From: a virus
Virus record (IMG/VR): IMGVR_UViG_3300008997_001278
Span: 1 to 49,723 of that record
Length of the DNA: 49,723 nucleotides
Reading direction: 5' to 3' (one strand)
Of the stretch, positions 18,151 through 37,682 are shown piece after piece. Every line of letters starts with the position of its first letter. The first letter of the stretch is position 1. Under the pieces are notes generated by a model. It made no database searches. It had not been told where the DNA came from and worked only from the letters and a program-made list of their open reading frames with translations. The position numbers and the translations under genes are program-made.

Positions 18151-18885
18151 ATGAAGTATTTATTTTTTGTGTTAAGTTTGCTCGGGGTTGTTTTCACCTC
18201 CACAAGTGTTGAGGCGTCAGGAACAAATATAGGCGCTGAAGTCCACCGCACCATCGAAATAAGTTCGCAGTTTAGTGAAGTCGAAACAAAAGTTCGAAAC
18301 GCAGCAGTAAGGGTTATAACTGCTGAAGGCGGTCACGGATCTGGGTCGTTGATCCAATACAAAGATATGCAGCTTATTGTTACAGCACAGCATGTTGCCT
18401 CTGATTTGGTTGGAACGGTATATCGAGTCATTCGTGGCACAGAATTAAGAACCGCGGTTTTGGTATATTCAAACGAGGCGCGCGATCATGCAATTCTCTG
18501 GGTTGATTCTCCTTATGAAGACGGCGCTATTCGATGGGACCCCCGACGCGAAATCGCGCCAGTAGGACAAAGGATAACATATTCTGGTTATCCGGGTGCA
18601 CACAATTTAATGACTTTTAGGGGACGAGTTGCCGGGTATGAAACAATGAGCGATGGCTCTACGAATATCTTACTACACACTTATGGTTATTTTGGATGTT
18701 CAGGCTCTTTAGTTTATGATGGGTCCGGCGAAATAGTAGGAGTCTTGTGGGGCATTGATGTGGGTCGAGGAGGAGTACCGGTAGAAAGCATGGTCTGGGT
18801 ATCTCCGATACAAAACCTTAATATAACCTATGCACTGCGGTCTATCTGCAGGACGCTAGGTGATGGTCCTCGGGCATGCCGATAG
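18151..18885 (+). CDS. Secreted trypsin/V8-like serine protease
   Basis: 244 residues. An N-terminal signal peptide (MKYLFFVLSLLGVVFTSTSV) ends near VEASG. The catalytic triad is visible: His81 in LIVTAQHVASD, Asp112 in ARDHAILW and Ser184 in FGCSGSLVYDG. Predicted to act in the periplasm or outside, or on the virion surface if packaged. Possible roles are cleavage of host envelope proteins or processing of phage proteins. Site TTAGGGGTGTTGT. Overlaps the Nudix gene by 10 nt. Confidence 0.83.
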   Translation: MKYLFFVLSLLGVVFTSTSVEASGTNIGAEVHRTIEISSQFSEVETKVRNAAVRVITAEGGHGSGSLIQYKDMQLIVTAQHVASDLVGTVYRVIRGTELRTAVLVYSNEARDHAILWVDSPYEDGAIRWDPRREIAPVGQRITYSGYPGAHNLMTFRGRVAGYETMSDGSTNILLHTYGYFGCSGSLVYDGSGEIVGVLWGIDVGRGGVPVESMVWVSPIQNLNITYALRSICRTLGDGPRACR

Positions 18886-19346
18886 AAGCGCCATCATGGC
18901 GCCGGTTCTTAAACGAAAGCAAAAATGAAGAATATGCTGCTGGAATTGTTGTGTGTCTTGACGAAAACGCGCGGTTTCTCGTTATACGACGAGGACCTAA
19001 CGATGATCGAGAAGGGCAATGGACAATCCCAGGCGGACATATAGACGACGAGGACGCGTCAATCGAGTCTGGTGCGCAGAGAGAGCTTAAGGAAGAGACT
19101 AATTTACATGTAGAACTTAGTGATATGCGGTATATTGGCATGCCAAAGCCAAAAAAGTATTATTATCTGGCTTTCTCTTGGCAAGGTGAGGTGAAAATTG
19201 ACATACCTAACCCCAAAACTGGTGTCATTGAACATGACGATTATAAGTGGGCAACCATTAAAGAGATAAAAGGATTGGATAATACCGAAATACCAATCTA
19301 TTTATTGGAAGAAGCATTAGAATATTATAAGGAACACAAAAAATGA
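18876..19346 (+). CDS. Nudix hydrolase with head-targeting-like N-terminus
   Basis: 156 residues. Nudix box: GGHIDDEDASIESGAQ followed by RELKEET (R69, E70, E73, E74). Nudix enzymes hydrolyse nucleoside diphosphate derivatives (dNTPs, NAD, ADP-ribose or capped RNA). Before the fold lies MPIEAPSWRRFLNES, matching the W-R-x-F-L-N-E motif found at the start of five or more genes downstream. By analogy with T4 internal proteins this could be a packaging signal cleaved after Glu14. If so, the enzyme is ejected with the DNA. Confidence 0.82.
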   Translation: MPIEAPSWRRFLNESKNEEYAAGIVVCLDENARFLVIRRGPNDDREGQWTIPGGHIDDEDASIESGAQRELKEETNLHVELSDMRYIGMPKPKKYYYLAFSWQGEVKIDIPNPKTGVIEHDDYKWATIKEIKGLDNTEIPIYLLEEALEYYKEHKK

Positions 19347-19600
19347 GATTTTTATTGGCGGCTGCAGTCTTTTTTAGTGGATTTGCATATGCAGACCCCC
19401 CTGAAACATCTGAAGATGTTGAAATACGCTATCGCGCGCGAACTGAAATTGACTTTGAGGGTGTGGATGTCGCGGGAACATTAGTTCGTCCCCAAGGATC
19501 CTTAATTCTTGATAGAAAAAAGGGTGCATTCAATCCATTGATTAGATTAAGGGAAGAATTTAACGACGAAATTTCGGATTCAACCGGATTAATTAGATAA
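19343..19600 (+). CDS. Small secreted protein (85 aa)
   Basis: Signal peptide MRFLLAAAVFFSGFAYADPP with a likely cut after AYA. The mature part is charged, with DFEGVDVAGTLVRPQGSLIL and RKKGAFNPLIRLREEF. Mature length about 65 residues. The PQGSLILDRKK/FNPLI pattern reminded me of short secreted proteins of deltaproteobacteria, but I cannot confirm that. It starts on an ATGA overlap with the Nudix gene. Confidence 0.62.
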   Translation: MRFLLAAAVFFSGFAYADPPETSEDVEIRYRARTEIDFEGVDVAGTLVRPQGSLILDRKKGAFNPLIRLREEFNDEISDSTGLIR

Positions 19601-19612
19601 GGTAGGAAACCT

Positions 19613-22450
19613 GTGGCACTTAAAGTTAGAATTGGCAAAAAACGCTCCAAATTATGCATTGCTGAGTCGAAAAAACGTGTAATTGTTGAAAATACGCTTA
19701 TACAAGAGCTTGAAGAGGATGAATTAGAACACATTCGTGGCATTCTTGACAAGATGGAAGACGATCCAGACTCGGTTGCCTTCCGAGAGTTGTTTGATGA
19801 TAAATTTCGTCGGATAATTGACTTTCCAACAACAGATAGCGCCACCGAGACCGGTCGATTTGTCTCTTTGTGGGATCAAATGGGTTATGACGTCAATTGG
19901 AACAAGGGTATCATCTCTGCAGAGAGAGAGCTAAAGTCAGGGACACCCGAACAAGAGCTTTTAGCAACAATGGGGTTTGGGGAAGCTCCAATAAAGAAAA
20001 AACGCAAAATTCAGATGAAAATCGGCAAATTCTTCGGTAAATTGGCAGATTTGACTGCTAAAAAGAAAGTTTTGACCGATAAAGTGCTTGATTTTGCTAA
20101 AAATAACAGAGATAAGCTCCCTACGAAGTTTGGAGCGAGATTCCCTAGGTCTGCTCGTGACATCACAGGTGAGATGTTAGAGACAGCGCTTACGCCGGAA
20201 GAAATAAAGAGATTTAATCAAATTGATAATCAACTCGACATGTATGGTGTTGACAAGATTAAATTACCAAACTTTCGTGCTACAGAGGCTGAATTTAAGG
20301 ATTTACAAGCTTATTGGCAAAAAAATGCCGATTATTTGAAAAAGAACATTGAGAAACTTAGGGATTCTGACACTTACTCAATTATCCTCACAAGACACCC
20401 AATTGATGTTTTACGTATGGCAGACTTTCAGGAGTTTGCTTCATGTCATAGTCCACCCTCGCAGGGATACGGCGATGGTGAGTACTATAAGTGTGCGGTC
20501 GCCGAAGCACACGGTGAAGGTGCTGTTGCTTATGTTGTAAATACTGACGAACTTTTGGCTATGACTGATTCCGGTACAATTGATGAAGCAGAAGAAAAGA
20601 TAAATACAGTTGAAGAGATTTTCGATGATAAAGTGAGAGATGTTGAAGGACTACCTTATAGTTACTCACCTACCGGCAGACCCCTAGGCGGAACAATCAT
20701 GCCTGTGTCGCGGTTGCGGTTGCGATTGGCAAAAGTAATGAGGGAAATGGGACAAGATCAATTCTTGAAAAAGAAACTTAAAGATATGTCTCCAGAGGAA
20801 GTCGAGGCGTTTAAATCGGGAGACTATAAAAACCTCCCAGCGAATTCAAAAATGAGCACAGAGATAGCTGTACCAGAGACGCGAGTTTATGGTGAGAAGC
20901 TTCCCGGCATTGGAGATCGACTATTACGCTGGGCGCAAGAACAACAAGCTGACATTATCGAAAATCTACCAAGAGCCGAAGATGGCAAGATTGATTTAAA
21001 TCAAATTACCTTCTTTGGCGGGCACTATTCAGATAGTGGAGGCTTGAAGGGACTAGATCAAAGATTCCGCGACCTCATAGGATTGACGTCAAACGAGACA
21101 TACGGCAAAAGCCGCCAAGATAGATCTGTGGAAGATAGTTTAGACGATGATTTGTTGTATAGTTCAAGAGAGAGGGTCCTTCATAACGAATGTGAAGAAA
21201 TTGCAGACGAGTTCAACAATCTCATGAAGTATTTTACAGTTGGATTTGAGGTAATGGATGATGGGGGTGGAGATTTTTATATAAAAGTCGATGCTGCTCT
21301 AGAGTTAAGTTTTGATGATTTTGAAAGACTACCAAATGTACACCAAGCTTTCGACATCGCACAAGAAGCCATAGGACAAATGAATGATTATCCTTATTCG
21401 AGAGATGGGGTGATAAGAGATGTCTTCAATGATTACCCTAGGATCGTTAACAAACCGGGGAGTACGGGTATTCCGACGCGCTATCGGAAAATCGCTGGTG
21501 GTTCCGGAAAGACTTATAAGAATGAACCCAAAATAACTTTCTTCATAGATGTTGAGCCAGAGGGGATAGATGACCTGGAAGTGGGGTATGTGTTTGGTCC
21601 CGACGGGTTTGCATCCTTTTGTGCAGAAATCAATAAGTTTGACGACATGGAAAATGATCACGACGCATTTTCCAAGCTCTTCGAAAAGTTATTTAAGACC
21701 GAAGGTTTTATGTCCGGAGGGGCTTTTATACAGTGGGCTAATGAGCTTTCCGTAGATTCAAATCTGTATTATGAGTGGGGTTATGACGTAGGAGACTCTT
21801 ACGACGGCGATCATTTCGAAAGTATAGACATTTATACAACTGACACGTATCTAGACCTCTCCGAGTATGTTGATAAAGAGAAGTTTGCAGTTAAATGGGA
21901 TACCAGCGGTACTCCCATAAAAGCTTTTGTGAACAACTATCCCGTGGCGTATGTCTATCGTGCAGATGATGGCAGTTTTGAAGTAACAGAATCAGAGAAC
22001 ATGAATGGTTATTATGAGTCTTTTGAAACAGTTAAGGCATCTATTGAAGCAGGACAAGCAAATAATGAGTATGCTTACGACATGATCAAAAAAGTGCTTG
22101 GAAGTAGAGAGTTCTCTCTCGCGCTTAAACAAAAGTTAGTGGGACCACATTTAGATGAGTCCGGGTATTGGCCTCCCAACTGGAGTGTGAAGTATCGAGT
22201 GATGCCTTCTGATGATGGTGAAATAGAAATCCTTATCCGCATGGAGGCAGATTCTGATGCCCCTGACGGCGCCATACGTTCTATGAGAGAAACTGTCGAA
22301 GAGTGGGAAGATCAAGACGAGTTGAGAGCAGCTGTTAAAAGTGTGGTCGATGCGTCGATGAGAAAAGTAAGTCAAAATAAACAATCTAAAGATCCTCTTT
22401 CGGAAAGTAAGAGGATAGTAAATACATGGAAGGAGTTCTTAAGAACATGA
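19613..22450 (+). CDS. Large probable virion-associated protein (945 aa)
   Basis: GTG start with AGGAAACCT upstream. The N-terminus is basic, then helical and acidic. Around residues 260-310 lies a conserved-looking block (RHPIDVLRMADF, ASCHSPPSQG, YYKCAVAEAHGEGAVAYVV) with Cys and His residues that might form a catalytic or metal site. The C-terminal half is Asp/Glu/Tyr-rich with repeated alpha/beta segments. I associate this layout with large uncharacterised proteins of marine phages. It ends in RIVNTWKEFLRT, whose codons include the next gene's ribosome-binding site. Confidence 0.65.
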   Translation: MALKVRIGKKRSKLCIAESKKRVIVENTLIQELEEDELEHIRGILDKMEDDPDSVAFRELFDDKFRRIIDFPTTDSATETGRFVSLWDQMGYDVNWNKGIISAERELKSGTPEQELLATMGFGEAPIKKKRKIQMKIGKFFGKLADLTAKKKVLTDKVLDFAKNNRDKLPTKFGARFPRSARDITGEMLETALTPEEIKRFNQIDNQLDMYGVDKIKLPNFRATEAEFKDLQAYWQKNADYLKKNIEKLRDSDTYSIILTRHPIDVLRMADFQEFASCHSPPSQGYGDGEYYKCAVAEAHGEGAVAYVVNTDELLAMTDSGTIDEAEEKINTVEEIFDDKVRDVEGLPYSYSPTGRPLGGTIMPVSRLRLRLAKVMREMGQDQFLKKKLKDMSPEEVEAFKSGDYKNLPANSKMSTEIAVPETRVYGEKLPGIGDRLLRWAQEQQADIIENLPRAEDGKIDLNQITFFGGHYSDSGGLKGLDQRFRDLIGLTSNETYGKSRQDRSVEDSLDDDLLYSSRERVLHNECEEIADEFNNLMKYFTVGFEVMDDGGGDFYIKVDAALELSFDDFERLPNVHQAFDIAQEAIGQMNDYPYSRDGVIRDVFNDYPRIVNKPGSTGIPTRYRKIAGGSGKTYKNEPKITFFIDVEPEGIDDLEVGYVFGPDGFASFCAEINKFDDMENDHDAFSKLFEKLFKTEGFMSGGAFIQWANELSVDSNLYYEWGYDVGDSYDGDHFESIDIYTTDTYLDLSEYVDKEKFAVKWDTSGTPIKAFVNNYPVAYVYRADDGSFEVTESENMNGYYESFETVKASIEAGQANNEYAYDMIKKVLGSREFSLALKQKLVGPHLDESGYWPPNWSVKYRVMPSDDGEIEILIRMEADSDAPDGAIRSMRETVEEWEDQDELRAAVKSVVDASMRKVSQNKQSKDPLSESKRIVNTWKEFLRT

Positions 22451-22866
22451 AACTAATAATAGAAAACTGGCAAAAATTTATGGCTGAGGCTTATATGAGA
22501 GATTTATCTCCCGAAGAAGAAGAAAAGGCGACAAAGCTTATCGCACAGATCGGAAAAGAGTATGTCGGATATCCTGAAGAAGTACAAACGATCCTTCACC
22601 TATTGGACAATTTTTTAAGTTTAGATAGCAACGCTATGCACGATGTAGTAATAAAAGTTAATAAAGAATTAAAAGATTGGCATGCCGCTTGTTATTGGAA
22701 TGATGACTGCGAATGGAACACCCAAGGAGAGCATTCCAACAAATACAGTCGAGGGCGCCCAACAAAACCGTTATTGACACAAACCGTTGACGCAGCTTTA
22801 AGGTCCCTTGCGATGGTGGCCACCGATGCGAAGGGCGGCACTATGCACAAGGCGCTTAAACGTTGA
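22447..22866 (+). CDS. Head-targeting-motif protein, unknown (139 aa)
   Basis: Starts MKLIIENWQKFMAEA, the shared N-terminal motif with a predicted cut after Glu14. The rest is helical with EEEEKATKLIAQIGKEY, a Trp/Cys patch (ACYWNDDCEW) and a C-terminal Ala-rich helix. ATG 22447 overlaps the previous stop and has AAGGAGTTCTTAAGAAC upstream; the in-frame ATG at 22426 lacks a site. No fold recognised. Confidence 0.7.
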   Translation: MKLIIENWQKFMAEAYMRDLSPEEEEKATKLIAQIGKEYVGYPEEVQTILHLLDNFLSLDSNAMHDVVIKVNKELKDWHAACYWNDDCEWNTQGEHSNKYSRGRPTKPLLTQTVDAALRSLAMVATDAKGGTMHKALKR

Positions 22867-23045
22867 AAGCTTTATTTAAAAAACTTTATCGCGATCTTTG
22901 TTTAGTTGCAATCGGAATGAACATCAGTTTTGTTGCTATTGCTGTAATTACAAAGGAACCAAACTTAGTTTTATTAGGATCTGTCTCGGCAATTCTTTGC
23001 GGTGTTGGAGCATGGCATAACTTTCCAAAGGAAAAAGAAGAATGA
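22863..23045 (+). CDS. Two-span small membrane protein (60 aa)
   Basis: TTG start at 22863 overlapping the previous stop (TTGA), with AAGGCG upstream. Sequence: MKALFKKLYRDLCLVAIGM, first span to about residue 29, then a short Lys/Glu loop and a second span (LVLLGSVSAILCGVGAW), and a basic/acidic tail. Shape resembles small holin- or antiholin-like proteins, but many other roles are possible. Overlaps the next gene by 4 nt. Confidence 0.58.
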   Translation: MKALFKKLYRDLCLVAIGMNISFVAIAVITKEPNLVLLGSVSAILCGVGAWHNFPKEKEE

Positions 23046-23497
23046 AATTATTAATGGAAAATTGGCGTACGTACGTGAATGAAGAAACACTCAAGTCCGA
23101 AATGCTTGAATTGCTTACGAACAATGGAATAGTGCTCTCTGAAGAACAATTAAATGAGATTAAATGGAAAGATCTGCTGAGTAAGTATGGGACTAAAGCT
23201 GCTGTATTGGCAGCCCTAGCCTTACCCGGCGCGCCCGCCCAAGCCGGCATAGGCGATTGGTTTGGAGGAGGAGGCGCAGAATCTAGCCAAGAACAAGCAG
23301 CGCCAGAAGAAGGCCCATCTGAGGATGGAAACTCTTTCACTGCTAAATTTGAGGTAGCGGGTGATATACAACTGTCTATGCAAGCAGCAGATTCATTAGC
23401 TTTAGAGGGAGCCGCTGATAACGGTTTGCAAGGAGCAGAGGTTACTTCCAGAATGCAGTCTGGCGGCTTCATTTATTCAACGGCGTCAGTAAACTAA
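23042..23497 (+). CDS. Head-targeting-motif protein with hydrophobic segment (151 aa)
   Basis: Starts MKLLMENWRTYVNEE (shared motif, predicted cut after Glu14). Next come a second helix with LSEEQLNEIKWKDLL, a hydrophobic Ala/Leu/Pro segment (KAAVLAALALPGAPAQAG), a Gly/Glu/Ser linker and a C-terminal domain with AKFEVAGDIQLSMQAA and a Gly-rich end. The hydrophobic segment looks like a signal or membrane insertion sequence buried inside the chain. Function unknown. Confidence 0.68.
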   Translation: MKLLMENWRTYVNEETLKSEMLELLTNNGIVLSEEQLNEIKWKDLLSKYGTKAAVLAALALPGAPAQAGIGDWFGGGGAESSQEQAAPEEGPSEDGNSFTAKFEVAGDIQLSMQAADSLALEGAADNGLQGAEVTSRMQSGGFIYSTASVN

Positions 23498-23499
23498 AT

Positions 23500-24609
23500 A
23501 TGAAACTCCTGTTTGAAAGCTGGCGAAGGTTCTATTCAGACAGACCTCGATTTGTTCTGTCCGAAGAACGCGAGGAGTTTCCCACTATGACCCCCATAGA
23601 GGGTCCGGGTAGGCAAACCCCTAGGGCAGTCGAAGAACAGTGGTTAAAAGACGCTACAGAGGGCTTAAAACCGTATGGATACTACCCCATCAAGAAGCTT
23701 GGTGAGGGACAGTACGGGAAAGTCTATCTTTCGAAGGATTTTAAGACAGAAACACCGGTTGCTGTCAAGATTGTCTCGAAAATGAGTGATAAATGGGGAC
23801 GCGAACGCGATAACTACGCATTTGCTATGGAAAATGCTAGTTCTATGGACCCTAAATTTGCTGGCTATCTACCTGTAGTTTATGACATTAAGGAAGATGA
23901 ATACGCTGTATACATTATAATGGAGCTTTTGGAGCCGGCACCAAAGGAAGTAATCAACCAACTTCTTGCAAGAGATAACTCTTATGACACAGATCCCGAC
24001 AAAGAAAAGAGGATTTTTGCCTCTGAAGCCGCAATTAATGACTTAATTGATATGGCGTTGAACAAAATGCCCGAATCGCCTAGATTAACGATGTCCCAGA
24101 TTGGATTTAAACAAGAACACATTGATGGAATCCGGCGTATAGCTCTCAATAGGTTTCTGAAAGGAGCAGTTCTTACTTCGGAAGAGAAAGAGAAACTAGA
24201 TTTTATTGATTTTGCCAAGATGGGAGATCCACAGTCCGAGCGCATGCGACTCCATCGGTTGTTGGGCGCAGAGATTTATCACATGACTGCACAGGTCTCA
24301 CCGTACCCAGTAGAAATGATGGCGAGGTCAATAATAGAGATGTTAGAAGATTCAATCCACCAAGCAATCTATAAACAGATTGTTCCTATTCACCAGGCCA
24401 CCAGCGTTCACGATACCACCACTTCTGGTGCTAGTGCTGGGATGTTAAGCGCTTTCCCAGAGGCAGAGGGAATTATGTCCGCTATGAAATACTTTGATAA
24501 GAGGCACCATTTTGAACCGAAAGACGTACATTTTAAAAATGTTATGATGAGACCAAAGGACGGCCATCTAGTTATTGTAGATCTCGGATTGTTTGTGATA
24601 AAGAGGTAA
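23500..24609 (+). CDS. Protein-kinase-like protein with head-targeting-like N-terminus
   Basis: 369 residues starting MKLLFESWRRFYSDR. Kinase features: Gly-rich loop GEGQYGKVY (68-76), Lys90 in VAVKIV, hinge-like IIMELLEPA (139-147), catalytic loop KDVHFKN with Asp342 and Asn347, and DLG at 361-363. About 190 residues, mostly helical, separate hinge and catalytic loop, and the protein stops six residues after DLG, so the usual activation segment and C-lobe helices are missing from their normal place. Likely a phosphotransferase of unusual layout. If packaged, it could phosphorylate host proteins on entry. Confidence 0.75.
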   Translation: MKLLFESWRRFYSDRPRFVLSEEREEFPTMTPIEGPGRQTPRAVEEQWLKDATEGLKPYGYYPIKKLGEGQYGKVYLSKDFKTETPVAVKIVSKMSDKWGRERDNYAFAMENASSMDPKFAGYLPVVYDIKEDEYAVYIIMELLEPAPKEVINQLLARDNSYDTDPDKEKRIFASEAAINDLIDMALNKMPESPRLTMSQIGFKQEHIDGIRRIALNRFLKGAVLTSEEKEKLDFIDFAKMGDPQSERMRLHRLLGAEIYHMTAQVSPYPVEMMARSIIEMLEDSIHQAIYKQIVPIHQATSVHDTTTSGASAGMLSAFPEAEGIMSAMKYFDKRHHFEPKDVHFKNVMMRPKDGHLVIVDLGLFVIKR

Positions 24610-24631
24610 ATGAATGAAACTCCTACTTGAA
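24598..24631 (+). repeat. 34-bp direct repeat, copy 1 (start cassette)
   Basis: Identical over 34 bases to 24980-25013. It covers the last codons of one gene (Ile-Lys-Arg-stop), the AGAGGTAAATGA ribosome-binding region and the first six codons (MKLLLE) of the next. It shows that the targeting N-terminus and its translation signals have been copied as a unit. Confidence 0.85.
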
Positions 24632-24991
24632 CAATGGCGAGAGTATTTGAAAGAGCAAGAGACGATTGCTGTGGGGCAATGCTATCCGTTCGCTGTTGAA
24701 ATGTCAAACAATTCATCAAAGTCTGAATTTGCTGACTTGTCCAAGTTCAAGGTTGTGCATGGTAGAGTCACTGATAAGTTCAGTGGCGAGAGCGTCCTTC
24801 ATGCTTGGGTGGAGAAAGGAGACATAGTGTTTGATTCTCAGACGAGCCGCACAAAGCCCAATGGCATTCCCAAGGCAGATTACTATGATATATATCAGCC
24901 AGAGCCACACGAAGAATACACCGCAGAAGAAACGATACTCAAGTGTATGAAGACGGGGCACAAAGGTCCGTGGAATCGCATAAAGAGGTAA
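24614..24991 (+). CDS. Papain-fold-like protein with head-targeting-like N-terminus (125 aa)
   Basis: Starts MKLLLEQWREYLKEQ. The core has GQCYPFAVEM (Cys23), VLHAWVEKGD (His63) and IVFDSQTS (Asp74), followed by ADYYDIYQP. The Cys-His-Asp order and spacing fit a small papain/transglutaminase-type fold known from phage hypothetical proteins. It could be a protease, amidase or deamidase. It ends in IKR encoded by the second copy of the 34-bp repeat. Confidence 0.65.
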   Translation: MKLLLEQWREYLKEQETIAVGQCYPFAVEMSNNSSKSEFADLSKFKVVHGRVTDKFSGESVLHAWVEKGDIVFDSQTSRTKPNGIPKADYYDIYQPEPHEEYTAEETILKCMKTGHKGPWNRIKR

Positions 24992-25013
24992 ATGAATGAA
25001 ACTCCTACTTGAA
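24980..25013 (+). repeat. 34-bp direct repeat, copy 2 (start cassette)
   Basis: Identical to 24598-24631, spanning the end of the papain-like gene and the start of the HAD gene. Identity stops at the seventh codon, after which both genes still encode a Trp-Arg pair. Confidence 0.85.
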
Positions 25014-25565
25014 AATTGGCGACAGTTCTTAAATGAGTCAAAGCTCCGTGTCTTTGATTTTGACGATACGATAGCAAAATCCGATTCGAACATCCACATC
25101 ACAACCGACACTGGTGACAGGATCACAATGACACCAGCCGAATACGCAACGCACGATTTTAACCCAGACTATGATTATGACTTTTCAGAGTTTGATGAAG
25201 TGATTAACCCAAGAGAAATTAAACAAATTACCAACATTGTTCGCAATGCAATCAATGCCGGCACAGAGGGGCGCGAGATTGCTATCTTGACGGCGAGGGC
25301 GGCAGGCGCAGAAGGCGCGATTCGAGATTATCTTGAGAGCATCGGGCTTGATACCTCGAAAATTACATTCGGGCTTTTAGGAGACTCAGACCCTGACGCT
25401 AAGGCAGCATGGATAGTTGACCGAATAGAGCAGGGAGTTACAGATGTATTGTTTTTCGATGATTCGGGGAAGAACGTGGAAGCTATCAACTCTTTATCCG
25501 CTCAATACCCAGAAATTAAGATCAGAGCAAGAAGGGTAAAATATGCCGAAGACGTGGCACAGTAA
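24996..25565 (+). CDS. HAD-type phosphatase with head-targeting-like N-terminus
   Basis: 189 residues starting MKLLLENWRQFLNES. HAD motif 1 is VFDFDDTIA (Asp21 nucleophile, Asp23). The motif 2 region is AILTARAAG, and the motif 4 region is DVLFFDDSGKN. A small HAD without a large cap, fitting 5'-nucleotidase or polynucleotide 3'-phosphatase types. The motif-1 aspartate comes only six residues after the predicted cut site, consistent with a removable leader. Last gene of the targeting-motif run before the 25.6 kb gap. Confidence 0.78.
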   Translation: MKLLLENWRQFLNESKLRVFDFDDTIAKSDSNIHITTDTGDRITMTPAEYATHDFNPDYDYDFSEFDEVINPREIKQITNIVRNAINAGTEGREIAILTARAAGAEGAIRDYLESIGLDTSKITFGLLGDSDPDAKAAWIVDRIEQGVTDVLFFDDSGKNVEAINSLSAQYPEIKIRARRVKYAEDVAQ

Positions 25566-25689
25566 GTCTGTGACAAAAAACTTAGCGAAATAAACAATAC
25601 ATTTTTTAGCTAATATTCAAGAAACCGGCGAAAACCGAGACCAGTTAACATTTGGAATAAATGACTTATAGCAAATGACTTGCTAACCA

Positions 25690-25697
25690 CTATTTAT
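25690..25697 (+). promoter_or_regulatory. CTATTTAT motif upstream of the 25732 gene
   Basis: Lies in a 166-base gene-free gap. If it is a late-type -10 element, transcription would start near 25703 and give a ~29-base leader carrying the GGGAGG ribosome-binding site of the next gene. The rest of the gap holds nothing I recognise. Confidence 0.35.
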
Positions 25698-25731
25698 CAT
25701 TGTATGCCATGGCGCGGGAGGCTGTTTTATT

Positions 25732-26052
25732 ATGCAAGATGATAATGGGTGGGATCAATACTCAAAACTAGTTTTAAAACAACTAGAGACTCTTTCTCTT
25801 ACTATCGAGGATTTGAGATCAGAACTTCAAGACATAAAAGAGAAATTGGCTGAACTGCGTGTGCGAGAAGAGAGAATTGAAGATATACGTACGTGGAAAA
25901 ACAAAGTAGACGAAGTTGTTTCACCCACTCAGCTGAGCATGTATATCAAAGAGATAGAAGAGCTTAAAATATTTAAAACCAAGGCAATTGCTGTATTTGC
26001 TACTGTTCAATTTATAATGGCTATAGCAATTGCTTGGCCAAAACTATTCTAA
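25732..26052 (+). CDS. Coiled-coil protein with C-terminal membrane span (XhlA-like)
   Basis: 106 residues: MQDDNGWDQYSKLVLKQLE, long heptad coiled coil to about residue 80, then one C-terminal span (AVFATVQFIMAIAIAW). This layout matches XhlA/hemolysin-type phage proteins often encoded near lysis genes. A role in lysis or membrane tethering is possible. Strong GGGAGG site. Start of a new transcription unit. Confidence 0.62.
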   Translation: MQDDNGWDQYSKLVLKQLETLSLTIEDLRSELQDIKEKLAELRVREERIEDIRTWKNKVDEVVSPTQLSMYIKEIEELKIFKTKAIAVFATVQFIMAIAIAWPKLF

Positions 26053-26053
26053 A

Positions 26054-26344
26054 ATGGCGTGGGATAATGTTGACGCCAAGAAGTTTAAAGTCTTAGTTAA
26101 ACAAATCTCTGGCACTATAAAGGACGCCGACGGTGCACTGACACCCTTTCACATAATTAAGGGAACTGGTGAGATTTGGTGTTTTCAACCATCTACGAAA
26201 CAAGTTGTGAAGCTATTTCGAGGCAAAGATATCTATATTCTAGATTTTGGAACAGAAGAAGATGAACAATGTCTGGCCATGTCTTCAGATGGTATTGTTT
26301 TTGTGATCGATAAAGACGAGATAGAAGAAATAGGCTTTAATTAA
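26054..26344 (+). CDS. Hypothetical protein (96 aa)
   Basis: MAWDNVDAKKFKVLVKQISG, beta-rich after residue 40 (EIWCFQPSTKQVVKLF, DIYILDFG, GIVFVIDKDEIEEIGF). ATG 26054 lies two bases after the previous stop; the earlier in-frame ATG 26030 overlaps it. No good ribosome-binding site, so probably coupled. Stop shares a base with the next ATG (TAATG). Confidence 0.58.
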   Translation: MAWDNVDAKKFKVLVKQISGTIKDADGALTPFHIIKGTGEIWCFQPSTKQVVKLFRGKDIYILDFGTEEDEQCLAMSSDGIVFVIDKDEIEEIGFN

Positions 26345-26487
26345 TGTTGTTTACGTTTAATAACGCACCTTGGAAATATCTACTTGTGTGTTGTGGTTCT
26401 TGGGGATTATACGCCCTTTGTGGTTTTGAATTCACAGTTATCACCCTTTTATCCCTTAGTATAGTCAATGTGAATCCAAAAAGATGA
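26344..26487 (+). CDS. 47-residue two-span membrane protein
   Basis: MLFTFNNAPWKYLLVCCGSW, first span to about residue 26, second span (VITLLSLSIVNV) and a basic end NPKR. It starts on the base shared with the previous stop, so translation is coupled. Next to the coiled-coil/membrane gene, it may belong to the same membrane (perhaps lysis) module. Confidence 0.52.
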   Translation: MLFTFNNAPWKYLLVCCGSWGLYALCGFEFTVITLLSLSIVNVNPKR

Positions 26488-26523
26488 ACTTTTTTATTTC
26501 CAATAGAAAATTGTGCGCTATTT

Positions 26524-26742
26524 ATGACACATATGAGACTTGATAAAAGAAAGACAAAAACTCTAATTCCAAATGAGCCGGCAATGCGTGGAAAGACGCT
26601 TTATATACTGTACAAGTATGATCTTGAGAGTGAGGAGTTAGCTTCCGATGGCCCATTTTTAAGCAAAGACGAAGCTTATGAAAAAATGAATTCTTTTCTG
26701 CAGCAAAAGGTTTGTTCATGGGTTGTCGTCTATAATGGATGA
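26524..26742 (+). CDS. Small hypothetical protein (72 aa)
   Basis: Frame starts MTHMRLDKRKTKTLIP, but ATG 26524 lies inside the CTATTTAT motif. If that motif is a promoter element, ATG 26533 (fourth codon) is the more likely start, near-leaderless. Core: KTLYILYKYDLES, FLSKDEAYEKMNSFL, SWVVVYNG, a small alpha/beta protein. No recognised family. Confidence 0.55.
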   Translation: MTHMRLDKRKTKTLIPNEPAMRGKTLYILYKYDLESEELASDGPFLSKDEAYEKMNSFLQQKVCSWVVVYNG

Positions 26743-27025
26743 GAAACCGGTTTTTGGAGAGTTATCTGCCGAAAATTTAGAAGTTGGCGATATTGTAGAA
26801 TGGAAAAAATGGTGCTATAAGGTGCGTGAATGGCAGCCTCACTATGGAGTGATTACTAGCATCAAAAATGAGATAAAAGGTAATCGAATGGTGTCGATTT
26901 CAAATGTGATGCCCCTTTCTAATAGTAATCAGGTTGAGGTGGAGTTCTTTACCCCTAGCTTAAAATTAGTGTCAAAAGTGCAGAGGTCTGATCAAATAAA
27001 CCCAAAGTTTGTGGAAAAGGGGTGA
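26735..27025 (+). CDS. VGDLV-family protein (variant EVGDIV)
   Basis: 96 residues: MDEKPVFGELSAENLEVGDI with VEWKKWCYKV next, YGVITSIKNEIKG, MVSISNVMPL and VEVEFFTPSLKLVSK. ATG 26735 overlaps the previous gene by 8 nt; no clear site. Same strand order as the small barrels but with a longer N-terminus. Followed by a gap holding CTATTTAT (27033) and TATAAT (27061). Confidence 0.58.
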   Translation: MDEKPVFGELSAENLEVGDIVEWKKWCYKVREWQPHYGVITSIKNEIKGNRMVSISNVMPLSNSNQVEVEFFTPSLKLVSKVQRSDQINPKFVEKG

Positions 27026-27087
27026 GTTGTAACTATTTATACTAGTAGTTTACAATACTCTATAATCTTGACTTGGTTTGTTTCTAA

Positions 27088-27996
27088 ATGATCGATATTA
27101 TCAACCCTATGATTAAAAGATTTCTTCCTTATGCACAAGAGAAGATGGGTTTTAATGAACCTCCAAAATTATTCCTCAAAGGTTCTGCGGAGAACGCAGA
27201 AGATCCTTTAGGAAAGACAGCTTTTTATGATCCCGCGGCAAAAGCAATCACAGTTTTCATAACAGGGCGCCATCCAAAAGATATCATGCGCTCTATTTCT
27301 CACGAATTAGTACATCATGCACAAAATTGTCGTGGGGAGTTCGACTGCCCCGGGGAAATGGGAGCAGGATACGCTCAAACCAATGATCATTTGCGAAATA
27401 TGGAGCGAGAAGCCTACGAAAAAGGAAACATGTGCTTCCGAGATTGGGAAGATAGCATAAAGAGTACTATTTATTTTGAACATCTACAAAAAGGAGACAG
27501 TAGAATAATGTCTACAAAACAATGGAAGAACGGAGAACTCAAGGGTCTCCTTTCAGAAGCCTGGGGTCTAAAAATGGATCTTAGCAAATTAAACGAAAAT
27601 CAGGATTTTGCAGCTGCGCATCGCACGGCTGGAGTATCATTAGAGGAATCAGAAGAACTTGAAGAAGGTGATACTGGTGCTTCTAAAGGCGATAAGGGTA
27701 AGGATAAAGATGACCCAGAAGCCAAAGATTACACCGACGGCGGTGACCGCAAAGGTGATGAGTCCAAGACCCACCCGGGTGAAAAGGATTATACCACCAA
27801 GAAGGGCGACAAAACAAAGAAAGGCGAAAAGGCTTTCGAAGATCCCAGCAAAGGCGAGAAAATCACGACTAGTGATAGCGACAAGCGCGGATCTAAGAAG
27901 GGCGATGAAGCTTATAAAAACGAGGGCGTCGAAGCACGATTGCAAGAGATTGTAAAGCACGCTGTTAAACAACTTAAGGAGAAGAAAAATGGGTAA
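27088..27996 (+). CDS. HExxH metallopeptidase-like protein with charged tail
   Basis: 302 residues. The N-terminal ~150 residues hold SISHELVHHAQNCRGEF (HExxH near residues 72-76) and a downstream NMEREAYEKGN whose Glu may complete the zinc site. From about residue 185 the chain is low-complexity Lys/Asp/Gly (repeated KGDKGK-like and EKDYT units), then ends in a helix (RLQEIVKHAVKQLKE). The pattern is familiar from putative zinc peptidases of marine T4-like phages. No ribosome-binding site is evident before ATG 27088. Confidence 0.72.
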   Translation: MIDIINPMIKRFLPYAQEKMGFNEPPKLFLKGSAENAEDPLGKTAFYDPAAKAITVFITGRHPKDIMRSISHELVHHAQNCRGEFDCPGEMGAGYAQTNDHLRNMEREAYEKGNMCFRDWEDSIKSTIYFEHLQKGDSRIMSTKQWKNGELKGLLSEAWGLKMDLSKLNENQDFAAAHRTAGVSLEESEELEEGDTGASKGDKGKDKDDPEAKDYTDGGDRKGDESKTHPGEKDYTTKKGDKTKKGEKAFEDPSKGEKITTSDSDKRGSKKGDEAYKNEGVEARLQEIVKHAVKQLKEKKNG

Positions 27997-28186
27997 AAAA
28001 TGGAAAAGATTGCTTATTGCAAGAAGAAATGCAGCTAAAGCAGTTGTGGAAACTGTACAAGAAGAACAACCTGTCGCCAAACCAGAAAAGGCGGTTGTAC
28101 CGGCTGCTGATGAAGCGGTGGAGAAGAGACAATCTATCAAAAAAGCACCAAAAGTAAAAAAAGCCTTTAAACCCAAAAAGAAGTAA
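27989..28186 (+). CDS. Lys/Ala-rich basic protein (65 aa)
   Basis: MGKKWKRLLIARRNAAKAVV, then a Pro/Val/Glu linker and a histone-H1-like Lys tail (KKAPKVKKAFKPKKK). Likely binds nucleic acid or polyanions. Overlaps the previous gene by 8 nt with AAGGAGAAGAAAA as the site. Could be a DNA-condensing internal head protein; unproven. Confidence 0.62.
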   Translation: MGKKWKRLLIARRNAAKAVVETVQEEQPVAKPEKAVVPAADEAVEKRQSIKKAPKVKKAFKPKKK

Positions 28187-28193
28187 ATAAACG

Positions 28194-28448
28194 ATGTCGC
28201 TAGATAAAAATTGGAGTGACTTTATTTTAGGAGAAGGTGTAGATAGGAATATCTTTACTTATCTTCACGGGTTGCAGGAAATAATCACAGCAATTAAGCC
28301 TCGTTCTATAACAGAGGAACACCGCTTAACTTTAGCTAAACAACATATTAAAGAAGTTCGTCGTTCTGCTCGTAAGATGCAAAACGAAATGAAGTTGTTG
28401 GAAGAGAGGCTGAATATCTTAGAAGAAAGTTTAAACGAGGGAAAATAA
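28194..28448 (+). CDS. Helical protein with targeting-like N-terminus (84 aa)
   Basis: Starts MSLDKNWSDFILGEG, a looser version of the W-x-x-F-I-x-E motif with a possible cut after Glu14. The remainder is helical (LAKQHIKEVRRSARKM, MKLLEERLNILEESL) and probably a coiled coil. Adjacent to the 28449 gene with no gap. Confidence 0.6.
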   Translation: MSLDKNWSDFILGEGVDRNIFTYLHGLQEIITAIKPRSITEEHRLTLAKQHIKEVRRSARKMQNEMKLLEERLNILEESLNEGK

Positions 28449-30794
28449 ATGCCCACACTTTTAAAAGAAGGCAGTGCCAACACACACCTTACTCACCTCG
28501 AAGAGTTAGTTCTCACGCAAGGTCCAGCCGGCTATAAAATGGCCCGGGCATTTCTGTTAGAACTTCTTGAAACCCTAAAGGGGAATTCTAAATCGCATGT
28601 GCAAACATCTGTTAAATGGGATGGAGCGCCGGCGATGTTTGTTGGTATCAACCCCGAGAATGGTAAGTTTTTTGTAGGAACTAAATCAATCTTTAATAAG
28701 GTTCCTAAAATTAACTACACTGAAGAGGATATTGTCAGAAACCACGGGCATGCACCCGGGCTTGTTGATAAATTATCGAAAGCATTAAAATATCTCCCTT
28801 CCCTTGGGATCAAAAATATTCTGCAGGGTGATTTCATGTTCGATGATGAAATGCTCGATGTTGTTCAAATAGATGGAGAACCACACTACCGCTTTAAGCC
28901 AAACACGATAGTTTATGCGGTACCGGTTGATTCAGACTTAGGTAGAGAGATTGGACAATCGAAATTTGGTATTGTATTTCACACTACATATGATAGCCTA
29001 GATAGCGGCGCTAGCTTTGGTGCGGATGTGAGCCAACTTAATAGAGTACCGGGGATTTGGTTCGATGATGCTTTCTTTACAGATGACACCGGTACAGTAA
29101 CTCTTACTGCTGGTGAAGAGAAGAGAATTCTTTCTTTAGTTAAAGAGGCTGACGCGGTTAATGAAAGTATAGACTATAATAATTTGCCCTCTGCGCTACT
29201 GAATATCTATATTAACAGCGAAATTAAAGGCGGACAGTTTTTGGAGGATCCAGAACGTTCTTTTGATGGCTTTAAGAACTGGTATTTCGAGCGTTCTGAA
29301 AAGAAAATCAGTAAGCTAAAAAGCGAGAAAGGCCGCGCTAAAGCCGAAACAAAAGCTCTGCAAGATATTCAACTGCTCGATAGCAAAAAAGAAGATATTC
29401 TTAATCTCTTTCAGGTATCTCGCCTATTGTTTGAAGCCAAAAACATTTTTATTGAGAAATACAACAATGCTGTGTATAATACAAAGCACTTTGTAGATGA
29501 TGGCTCTGGAGATCTGGTTGCGACGAATCCAGAGGGATATGTAGCAGTAGATCATGCGGGTAATGGAGTGAAATTTGTAGATCGTCTGGAATTTAGCCGC
29601 GCTAACTTTATGGTAGATAAAACTGCCAAATTTACTGGTGAATCCGTTGATCGCCGAAACTTTACTGTTCAAATCTCAAAAAATAAACAAATAACGAAAA
29701 CTATAGCCGAGTGGTTGACAGAAATTAAGGCCGCAGGGCACAAACACCAGAAACTCCCACAAATGGTTTATAAGGACGTCTTGGCAGGTACCCCTATCGT
29801 AGACATTGTTGTTCAAGAGAACGCCGAGAGAACCATCTACAACGCCGTTATGGACTATGCCAATAGTCTAAAGGAACAGTTCGAAGAAGGACCTCCAGAA
29901 GACGAATGGTATAGTGATGAATATGAGACGCTAGGGGATCGCAAGTTTGCAGATACTCCGGGTCAGACCATCGCTCTTGTCCCAGGTGCATTTAAGCCAC
30001 CACACAGAGGGCATGCCGATATGGTACGTCGTTACGCTACCGGCGACGGTGTACCAAAAGCAGACAGAACAATTATTTTGATTTCCAATCCCAAGGGCGC
30101 GCTACGCACGCTGCCGCATGATGGTTCAGAAGTTAGTGCAGAACATTCCCGACGAATTTGGGAAACAGTCTTCTCTGATGTTACAAACCTGCCGGGTGTT
30201 GAAATACAAGTTGCAGACTCAGAGATGAGATCACCAGTAAGCATCGCTTATGAATATATTAGTGAAACATCTCCGCTAGATATCAAGGCGGGAGACGATA
30301 TTATTTTGGGGGCTAGCAGAAAAGATCGTGATTTCATGCGATGGAAAGGCGCCTCTGAATATAAAAAGAAGAAGAGAGGGGTTAATGTCTTAGCTGGTGA
30401 GGAATACGCTGTAGTGCCTTCTGAGCGCTCTGATAACAAACCTTTTAGCGCCGGCGATTCGAGACAGTTGGTCAGCAATTTAGTAACCAACCCAGAAGAT
30501 GTGGAATCATTGCGGCAGCTAACTGAGTATATTCCACAAGATAAGATCGATGAGTTATTCAATATCTTAGGACAACCATCTCCAGTTTCTACAATGGAAC
30601 AAGATCCTGTGAATGAAACGTCACTTGGGGGTGGCGGACCCGGTGGGGCGCCGGGGAATGTGACCGGTTACTCAGGCCCTTTGCAATCTGGGTCGGGTAA
30701 ACCCAAGAAAAAACCCAGAAAGAAAAAGAATGAAAATTTAGTTATCGTGAACGAAGTTATGAAACTAATTATGGAAAGAGGCATACAAAGATGA
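28449..30794 (+). CDS. Ligase-like nucleotidyltransferase fused to NMNAT/cytidylyltransferase-type domain
   Basis: 781 residues. N-terminal core: K56-W-D-G59 (KxDG, the covalent-nucleotidyl-transfer motif of ligases and capping enzymes), LQGDFMFDDEM near 125-135 (motif III-like), EGYV at 362-365 (motif IV) and VKFVDR at 374-379 (motif V). C-terminal domain from about residue 500: LVPGAFKPPHRGH (HxGH nucleotide-binding motif), LGASRKDRDF and FSAGDSRQL (equivalent to ISxTxxR). Gly/Pro/Lys-rich linker and C-terminal helix follow. Suggests nucleic-acid end joining or modification coupled to NAD-type chemistry. ATG 28449 follows GAGGGAAAATAA. Confidence 0.72.
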   Translation: MPTLLKEGSANTHLTHLEELVLTQGPAGYKMARAFLLELLETLKGNSKSHVQTSVKWDGAPAMFVGINPENGKFFVGTKSIFNKVPKINYTEEDIVRNHGHAPGLVDKLSKALKYLPSLGIKNILQGDFMFDDEMLDVVQIDGEPHYRFKPNTIVYAVPVDSDLGREIGQSKFGIVFHTTYDSLDSGASFGADVSQLNRVPGIWFDDAFFTDDTGTVTLTAGEEKRILSLVKEADAVNESIDYNNLPSALLNIYINSEIKGGQFLEDPERSFDGFKNWYFERSEKKISKLKSEKGRAKAETKALQDIQLLDSKKEDILNLFQVSRLLFEAKNIFIEKYNNAVYNTKHFVDDGSGDLVATNPEGYVAVDHAGNGVKFVDRLEFSRANFMVDKTAKFTGESVDRRNFTVQISKNKQITKTIAEWLTEIKAAGHKHQKLPQMVYKDVLAGTPIVDIVVQENAERTIYNAVMDYANSLKEQFEEGPPEDEWYSDEYETLGDRKFADTPGQTIALVPGAFKPPHRGHADMVRRYATGDGVPKADRTIILISNPKGALRTLPHDGSEVSAEHSRRIWETVFSDVTNLPGVEIQVADSEMRSPVSIAYEYISETSPLDIKAGDDIILGASRKDRDFMRWKGASEYKKKKRGVNVLAGEEYAVVPSERSDNKPFSAGDSRQLVSNLVTNPEDVESLRQLTEYIPQDKIDELFNILGQPSPVSTMEQDPVNETSLGGGGPGGAPGNVTGYSGPLQSGSGKPKKKPRKKKNENLVIVNEVMKLIMERGIQR

Positions 30795-37163: not shown

Positions 37164-37682
37164 ATGGGACACTCTACTTTGACTCTGAAACTCGATGCGT
37201 CATACCGTCCGATAGGGGTGATTGATGCGGTTGAGGCTTTTGTTTTGTGTCTTGTCGGCAAAGCCACTCCCGTTGAAAATTACGGGAAAAAGATAAACAC
37301 CGTAAATAAGAGTTTTACACTACCAGCTGTCATCGTCTTACACAGAGTTATAAAATTTAGGTTATATAACTTAACACCAAATCGAAGAAACATTTTATTG
37401 AGAGACAATAACCAGTGTCAATATTGTCGACAAATGTTTCCTCCTCTTGAACTAACACTAGATCACATAGTGCCGAAGTCTCTCGGAGGAACCAATACGT
37501 GGCTAAACTTGGTAGCGGCATGTAAATCATGCAACCAGAAGAAAGGAAATAAACTTTTAAGAGACACGGCAATGACCTTATTACGAAAGCCATACTCACC
37601 AAAATACAGCATTTTTACGTCTATGTTAAATGATAAACAAGTATCAGATTTGTGGTCTGATTATTTGTGGGAAAAAAGTTGA
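37164..37682 (+). CDS. HNH endonuclease
   Basis: 172 residues. The HNH core is NNQCQYCRQMF, LTLDHIVPKSLGG, NLVAACKSCNQKKGNK: two CxxC zinc pairs framing D-H...N. The N-terminal LDASYRPIGVIDAVEAF extension is typical of a free-standing bacterial/phage HNH family. It may nick or cut DNA in packaging, homing or host-genome degradation. Weak GGAG site before ATG 37164. The frame end overlaps the next promoter. Confidence 0.82.
   Translation: MGHSTLTLKLDASYRPIGVIDAVEAFVLCLVGKATPVENYGKKINTVNKSFTLPAVIVLHRVIKFRLYNLTPNRRNILLRDNNQCQYCRQMFPPLELTLDHIVPKSLGGTNTWLNLVAACKSCNQKKGNKLLRDTAMTLLRKPYSPKYSIFTSMLNDKQVSDLWSDYLWEKS

Follow-up and report, generated by a model that had tools for sequence, protein, structure and literature searches.

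Proteins that enter the cell together with phage DNA are hard to read from a genome. In the stretch of DNA analysed here, a 49.7-kb piece of the record of a marine phage (hereafter referred to as the window), seven genes in the span 18876 to 28448 encode proteins that carry a similar short leader on unrelated folds. The initial annotation compared this leader with the capsid-targeting sequence (CTS) of the internal head proteins of phage T4 and proposed that the enzymes bearing it are packed into the head, trimmed by the prohead protease and ejected into the host, where they act before any phage gene is expressed. The question raised by this locus is, thus, whether the leader is such a capsid address and how widely it is used.

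The tag in the window

The core of the 14-residue leader is W-x-x-[FY]-[LIVM]-x-E, common to the seven window proteins, with FYSD as the variant of the kinase. All seven leaders are present where they had been reported, namely in the genes starting at 18876 (SWRRFLNE), 22447 (NWQKFMAE), 23042 (NWRTYVNE), 23500 (SWRRFYSD), 24614 (QWREYLKE), 24996 (NWRQFLNE) and 28194 (NWSDFILGE) (Table 1). The last residue of the motif is residue 14 in all seven (Glu; Asp in the kinase), the 22447 gene being counted from its 22447 start, and the leaders end there with LNE (Nudix), MAE (22447), VNE (23042), YSD (kinase), LKE (24614), LNE (HAD) and LGE (28194). Phe or Tyr occupies position W+3 in 7/7 leaders. A strict L-x-E cut site is found in four of the seven and M/V-x-E in two, while the kinase has none. 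An eighth tag, overlooked in the initial annotation, belongs to the 945-aa protein (19613-22450), which ends ...LSE-SKRIVNTWKEFLRT; the tag is N-terminal in the seven leader proteins and C-terminal in this one. The papain-like identity earlier given to the 24614..24991 protein found no Pfam match to back it.

Table 1. Tagged proteins of the window, with coordinates of genes and tags
Protein	Gene	Strand	Tag	Tag coordinates	Remarks
Nudix hydrolase	18876..19346	+	MPIEAPSWRRFLNE	18876-18917	Pfam NUDIX E 1.5e-17; predicted cut after E14 (L-N-E)
945-aa protein (C-terminal tag)	19613..22450	+	SKRIVNTWKEFLRT	22406-22447	Predicted cut after E931 (L-S-E, 22397-22405)
139-aa protein	22447..22866	+	MKLIIENWQKFMAE	22447-22488	P3 Met; one close homologue, L007
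151-aa protein	23042..23497	+	MKLLMENWRTYVNE	23042-23083	P3 Val; L098 homologue leader MKLLMENWRQYLTE
Protein kinase	23500..24609	+	MKLLFESWRRFYSD	23500-23541	Pfam Pkinase E 1e-9
125-aa protein	24614..24991	+	MKLLLEQWREYLKE	24614-24655	Predicted cut L-K-E14; L112 homologue tagged MKLLLENWRGYIKE
HAD-type phosphatase	24996..25565	+	MKLLLENWRQFLNE	24996-25037	PHROG polynucleotide kinase/phosphatase E 1.6e-9; predicted cut L-N-E14
84-aa protein, adjoins DUF6267 gene	28194..28448	+	MSLDKNWSDFILGE	28194-28235	Predicted cut L-G-E14

The leader is retained in homologues of several of these proteins. It persists in homologues of the HAD phosphatase even at 25% identity, and the kinase homologues in G017 and L011 start with MKLLFENWRRFLAE and MKLLLENWRKFVNE, respectively. 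Homologues of the 28194 protein carry FLNE, FLLNE, FILGE or YLINE, [LI]-x-E being retained across a slip of one residue.

Three neighbouring genes of the window were also noted. The 244-aa protein at 18151-18885, directly upstream of the Nudix gene, begins in the manner of a signal peptide and contains GHGSGS/CSGS motifs reminiscent of a trypsin-type protease, and a similar gene lies upstream of the Nudix gene in G001. The DUF6267 protein (28449-30794) starts with MPTLLKEGSANTHL, which holds an L-x-E site and no Trp leader; its homologues in other phages have a T4-type leader ahead of the same domain. The DUF6647-like protein (27088-27996), with a HELVHH motif, is without a leader, and a weak L426 homologue of it has the T4-type leader MKTFQEFLNEA at its start.

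Distribution of the leader among related phages

A DNA pattern of the leader, together with relatives of the HAD protein, led to more than 100 viral contigs. These related marine phages yielded 235 leader proteins in 102 clusters, between which no similarity is detectable past the leader. A leader profile partly trained on these same phages was built without the start codon, so that restriction to the N-terminus is not built in; it gave 73 N-terminal and no internal matches in the 1,834 ORFs of the window and eight near-complete relatives. In random viral contigs (1,335 ORFs) the same profile matched twice at the N-terminus and four times internally; at that threshold it matched nothing in T4 or in stretches of the head cluster from two cultured far-T4 phages. 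Up to 17 profile matches occur per genome and more than 100 families are marked across the clade, features which, together with the C-terminal form, set the marine tag apart from the T4 CTS.

Examined position by position over the 102 clusters, the leader is conserved from its Met through the Glu at W+6, after which conservation drops at once. Most leader positions were fixed by the search pattern, Trp being present in all clusters by search design, whereas the last three, including W+6, were not fixed by the DNA pattern; Glu is nevertheless found at W+6 in 87/102 unrelated clusters. Tyr or Phe occupies W+3 in 98 of the 102, and aliphatic-x-Glu stands at +4/+6 in 87. The shared leader is real and chance is excluded as its explanation.

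By their capsid protein, the leader phages lie close to Rhodothermus phage RM378, Flavobacterium phage immuto and Microcystis phage Mel-JY01. We take them to be members of the far-T4 branch, an assignment that follows a paper on that branch (PMC4360716) and not a tree. Comparison of the leader with cultured phages by tblastn gave no match, the leader DNA pattern has single matches among cultured phages in HTVC008M and Mel-JY01 only, and no account of such leaders in far-T4 phages was found in the open literature.

At the DNA level, the first nine codons of the leader are biased relative to the rest of the genes (Leu CTC makes up 41% at codon 3 as against 8%), as though copied as DNA, and the leader DNA thus seems to be exchanged as a unit. 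Such a pattern would also be expected if the leader were a recombination seam or a translation-start module that spreads genes, with a peptide that has no function of its own. This explanation is most improbable in view of the synonymous codon variation among leaders inside one genome, the Nudix homologues, which retain only W, [FY], [LI] and E while the remaining leader positions vary amid changing DNA, the presence of the tag at C-termini as well, and the region upstream of the tagged genes, where nothing except the ribosome-binding site is conserved. Recombination probably spreads the tag, without accounting for the register of the cut site or the C-terminal form. A common upstream regulatory motif of the tagged genes was ruled out, as only the ribosome-binding site was found.

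Correspondence with the T4 capsid-targeting sequence and the C-terminal form

Entry of T4 IPIII into the head requires only its first 10 residues, MKTYQEFIAE (PMC9026906). Mutagenesis of this CTS has assigned residues 4 and 7 to targeting and residues 8 and 10 to processing by gp21, which cleaves after L/I-x-E, and Asp at residue 10 allows targeting and blocks cutting (PMC9026906). The leader columns W0, [FY]+3, [LIVM]+4 and E+6 align with residues 4, 7, 8 and 10, and the L156 Nudix leader, MNKWNKFLTE, is identical to the T4 sequence in length and register. Where Glu stands at +7 and not at +6, position +5 is aliphatic in five of the eight clusters, against 6/87 (p=4e-4), or in 18/22 against 8/198 when all sequences are counted. 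The aliphatic residue slips together with the Glu and the gp21 motif L/I-x-E is thereby preserved, a retention of register that is expected of a protease site and for which a docking helix would have no reason.

Like the CTS of T4 IPI, IPII and IPIII, the marine tag is a short N-terminal leader on unrelated mature proteins, with an aromatic residue, Phe/Tyr three positions on and then aliphatic-x-Glu; a gp21-family protease occurs in the large leader-bearing records, and some homologous cargo carries a T4-type leader elsewhere. The two differ in length (10 residues in T4 and usually 14 in the marine leader, with MKLL[LMF]EN in front, which is within the 10-19 residues of propeptides of this type) and in the aromatic residue, which is Tyr in T4 and Trp in the marine phages. 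The propeptides of SPN3US/phiKZ-type ejection proteins are likewise N-terminal, cut after Glu by the prohead protease and borne by head proteins that are ejected (PMC5694885), but they are mostly longer than 100 residues, use the motif A-x-E and have no uniform short tag.

The seven core columns of the marine profile, when run on T4, rank IPII and IPIII 3rd-4th of 473 ORFs, a ranking that counts once since the two have one common leader. IPI (98th) and Alt (301st) rank low, so that the scan reaches only the MKTYQEFIAE type. T4 gp61.1 (18966-19130, minus strand, locus L389; gene assigned by position), a 54-aa hypothetical protein that apparently starts MKTFKEFIKED, ranks above IPII and IPIII and is a candidate for an overlooked internal head protein. 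In gp23, the major capsid protein, of seven relatives, a conserved LLRE boundary stands just ahead of the mature domain. The gp23 propeptide of G001, G003, G017, G018, G020, G021 and G024 contains a conserved LLxKWExTGLLEG, whose likeness to the leader could reflect a shared scaffold contact.

The initial annotation had proposed a search for a gp21-type protease and further leader-bearing genes. The window, a 49.7-kb fragment, has no gp21 gene, but every one of the ten records of 150 kb or more that bear the leader encodes the S77 prohead protease gp21, which is weak evidence because large random viral contigs often have it too (2/3 of those of at least 150 kb); its co-occurrence was for this reason dropped as decisive proof. 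In five records (L026, L187, L189, L190 and L194) tagged genes adjoin gp21 within the head cluster, which is stronger evidence than co-occurrence. Further tagged genes were found both in the window, in the form of the 945-aa protein, and in the clusters of the relatives.

The family of the 945-aa protein consists mostly of proteins of 780-1,150 aa. Among its 30 complete members, the tag is at the C-terminus only in 21, at the N-terminus only in four, at both ends in two and at neither in three, although one of these three does show a leader at its N-terminus if a GTG start is allowed. The occurrence of the tag at one end or the other gives a Fisher p of 0.016, or 0.003 with the GTG-start member moved. 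The C-terminal tag is almost always without its own Glu, and [LIVMT]-x-E is found at W-6 or W-8, between cargo and tag, in 11/13 C-tagged proteins of at least 300 aa, which largely belong to one family and are not independent. One clade of C-tagged proteins has Thr at P3, the upstream site being usually [LIT]-x-E. The same layout of cut motif followed by tag recurs in two other C-tagged proteins, IRE-SKVIMENWKKFIS (G021) and IPE-GIKNKWKKLIK (L184). In an AF2 model of the 945-aa protein, the tag lies in a C-terminal helix of its own (929-944), and the predicted cut site falls in the linker of low confidence that precedes this helix. Searches with the protein revealed neither a Pfam match nor a solved relative or a cultured homologue, and fold matches to the model (mean pLDDT 70) reached E 0.14 at best. 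In T4, gp21 trims both ends of Alt (PMC9026906), which provides a precedent for C-terminal processing and a cleavable C-terminal form. Alt differs in its poor leader-profile score (rank 301) and in that no common C-terminal tag has been described; no report of a targeting tag at its C-terminus was found.

Other terminal motifs were observed in addition. The 945-aa family and the T4-type tagged proteins of other phages have in common a recurrent motif like CWKGYEKKGMKKMFGKMYPNCVK (G001 72972-75521 (-), L494 and others). The HNH endonuclease of the window (37164-37682) ends LWSDYLWEKS, and proteins of L034 and L140 end WKNYLW and one L173 protein WKNYLWDFS; the LWSDYLW/WKNYLW endings are possibly a second C-terminal signal without a cut site.

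The leader is amphipathic and might suit many partners, and its tie to the virion comes from sequence comparison, so that it may be asked whether the tag is a docking helix for another site (the membrane, the host RNA polymerase or another phage complex) unrelated to the head. This is very unlikely, as it would account neither for the [LI]-x-E register and the agreement with T4 at four CTS positions nor for the cut motif that separates cargo from C-terminal tag and the tagged genes beside gp21. The tag system is, with high probability, a CTS of the T4 type, serving head targeting and cleavage by the prohead protease. The head packing and trimming proposed in the initial annotation are well supported by comparison, through the agreement in residues with the T4 CTS, the [LI]-x-E register, the gp21-flanking genes, the IPII/IPIII ranks and the common cargo; trimming of the kinase is not expected, since it has Asp in place of Glu, which in T4 blocks cutting. 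The kinase is predicted to be packaged uncut, its targeting residues being retained.

Cargo and the proposed role of the tag

Pfam domains recognised in the cargo include protein kinase, Nudix, zeta-toxin-like kinases, RNase T-type exonuclease, GNAT, nucleotidyltransferase, HAD, DUF192 and a papain-like toxin-type domain. The majority of cargo clusters are without a Pfam match, and no cluster matched a Pfam family of phage structural proteins. The T4-type pattern MKT[YF]x[EK]F[LIVMF]xE was found in 126 proteins in 60 clusters, 16 of which resemble W-type tagged proteins, the HAD family among them (194 residues, E 2.5e-18); several of these cross-type matches are short or partial, so that the HAD family is firm and the others are leads. 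As judged by such similarity, both leader types mark some common cargo. The T4-type leaders of these IMG/VR pattern matches (L399-L518) are borne by proteins that include DUF6267 and apparent ART, HAD and nucleotidyltransferase proteins.

According to the proposed mechanism, a short helix with Trp and, three residues on, Phe/Tyr would dock unrelated cargo onto the scaffold core of the prohead. After closure of the shell, a gp21-type protease would cut after [LI]-x-E and free the cargo inside the head, from which it would be ejected along with the DNA to act on the host. A C-terminal tag would work too, with the cut site upstream, between cargo and tag.

Alternatively, the tag could load the prohead with cargo that has its task in assembly, in DNA packaging or in the virion itself and is not ejected to act on the host. 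Tagged genes flank gp21 within the head cluster, most cargo clusters are without a recognised domain and it is unsettled whether T4 IPIII serves assembly or host take-over (PMC9026906), all of which would agree with such a role. The recognised domains are, however, mostly enzymes (kinase, zeta-toxin-like, exonuclease, GNAT, nucleotidyltransferase), and the cargo differ from phage to phage, unlike assembly factors; such a role is thus considered unlikely. The cargo domains fit enzymes sent into the host and, by analogy with T4, ejection of most of these enzymes is likely, in which case they may act on the host before phage gene expression.

Taken as a whole, it appears fairly probable that marine far-T4 phages employ one cleavable capsid tag, at either end of the protein, to fill the head with a large and exchangeable set of enzymes, and that the tag can serve to list injected effectors from sequence. 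The scale and the C-terminal form with its predicted cleavage are new. Should the tag be a capsid address, more than 100 unrelated families would be marked by it in one uncultured clade, in addition to about 60 T4-type clusters, and most of the tagged families are without a recognised function. It would then provide a direct listing of candidates for action on the host ahead of phage gene expression, those of counter-defence included, and a ready-made address for loading phage heads, either N-terminal (MKLLLENWRKYLNE) or C-terminal (LNEYLVKTWKRFLSN).
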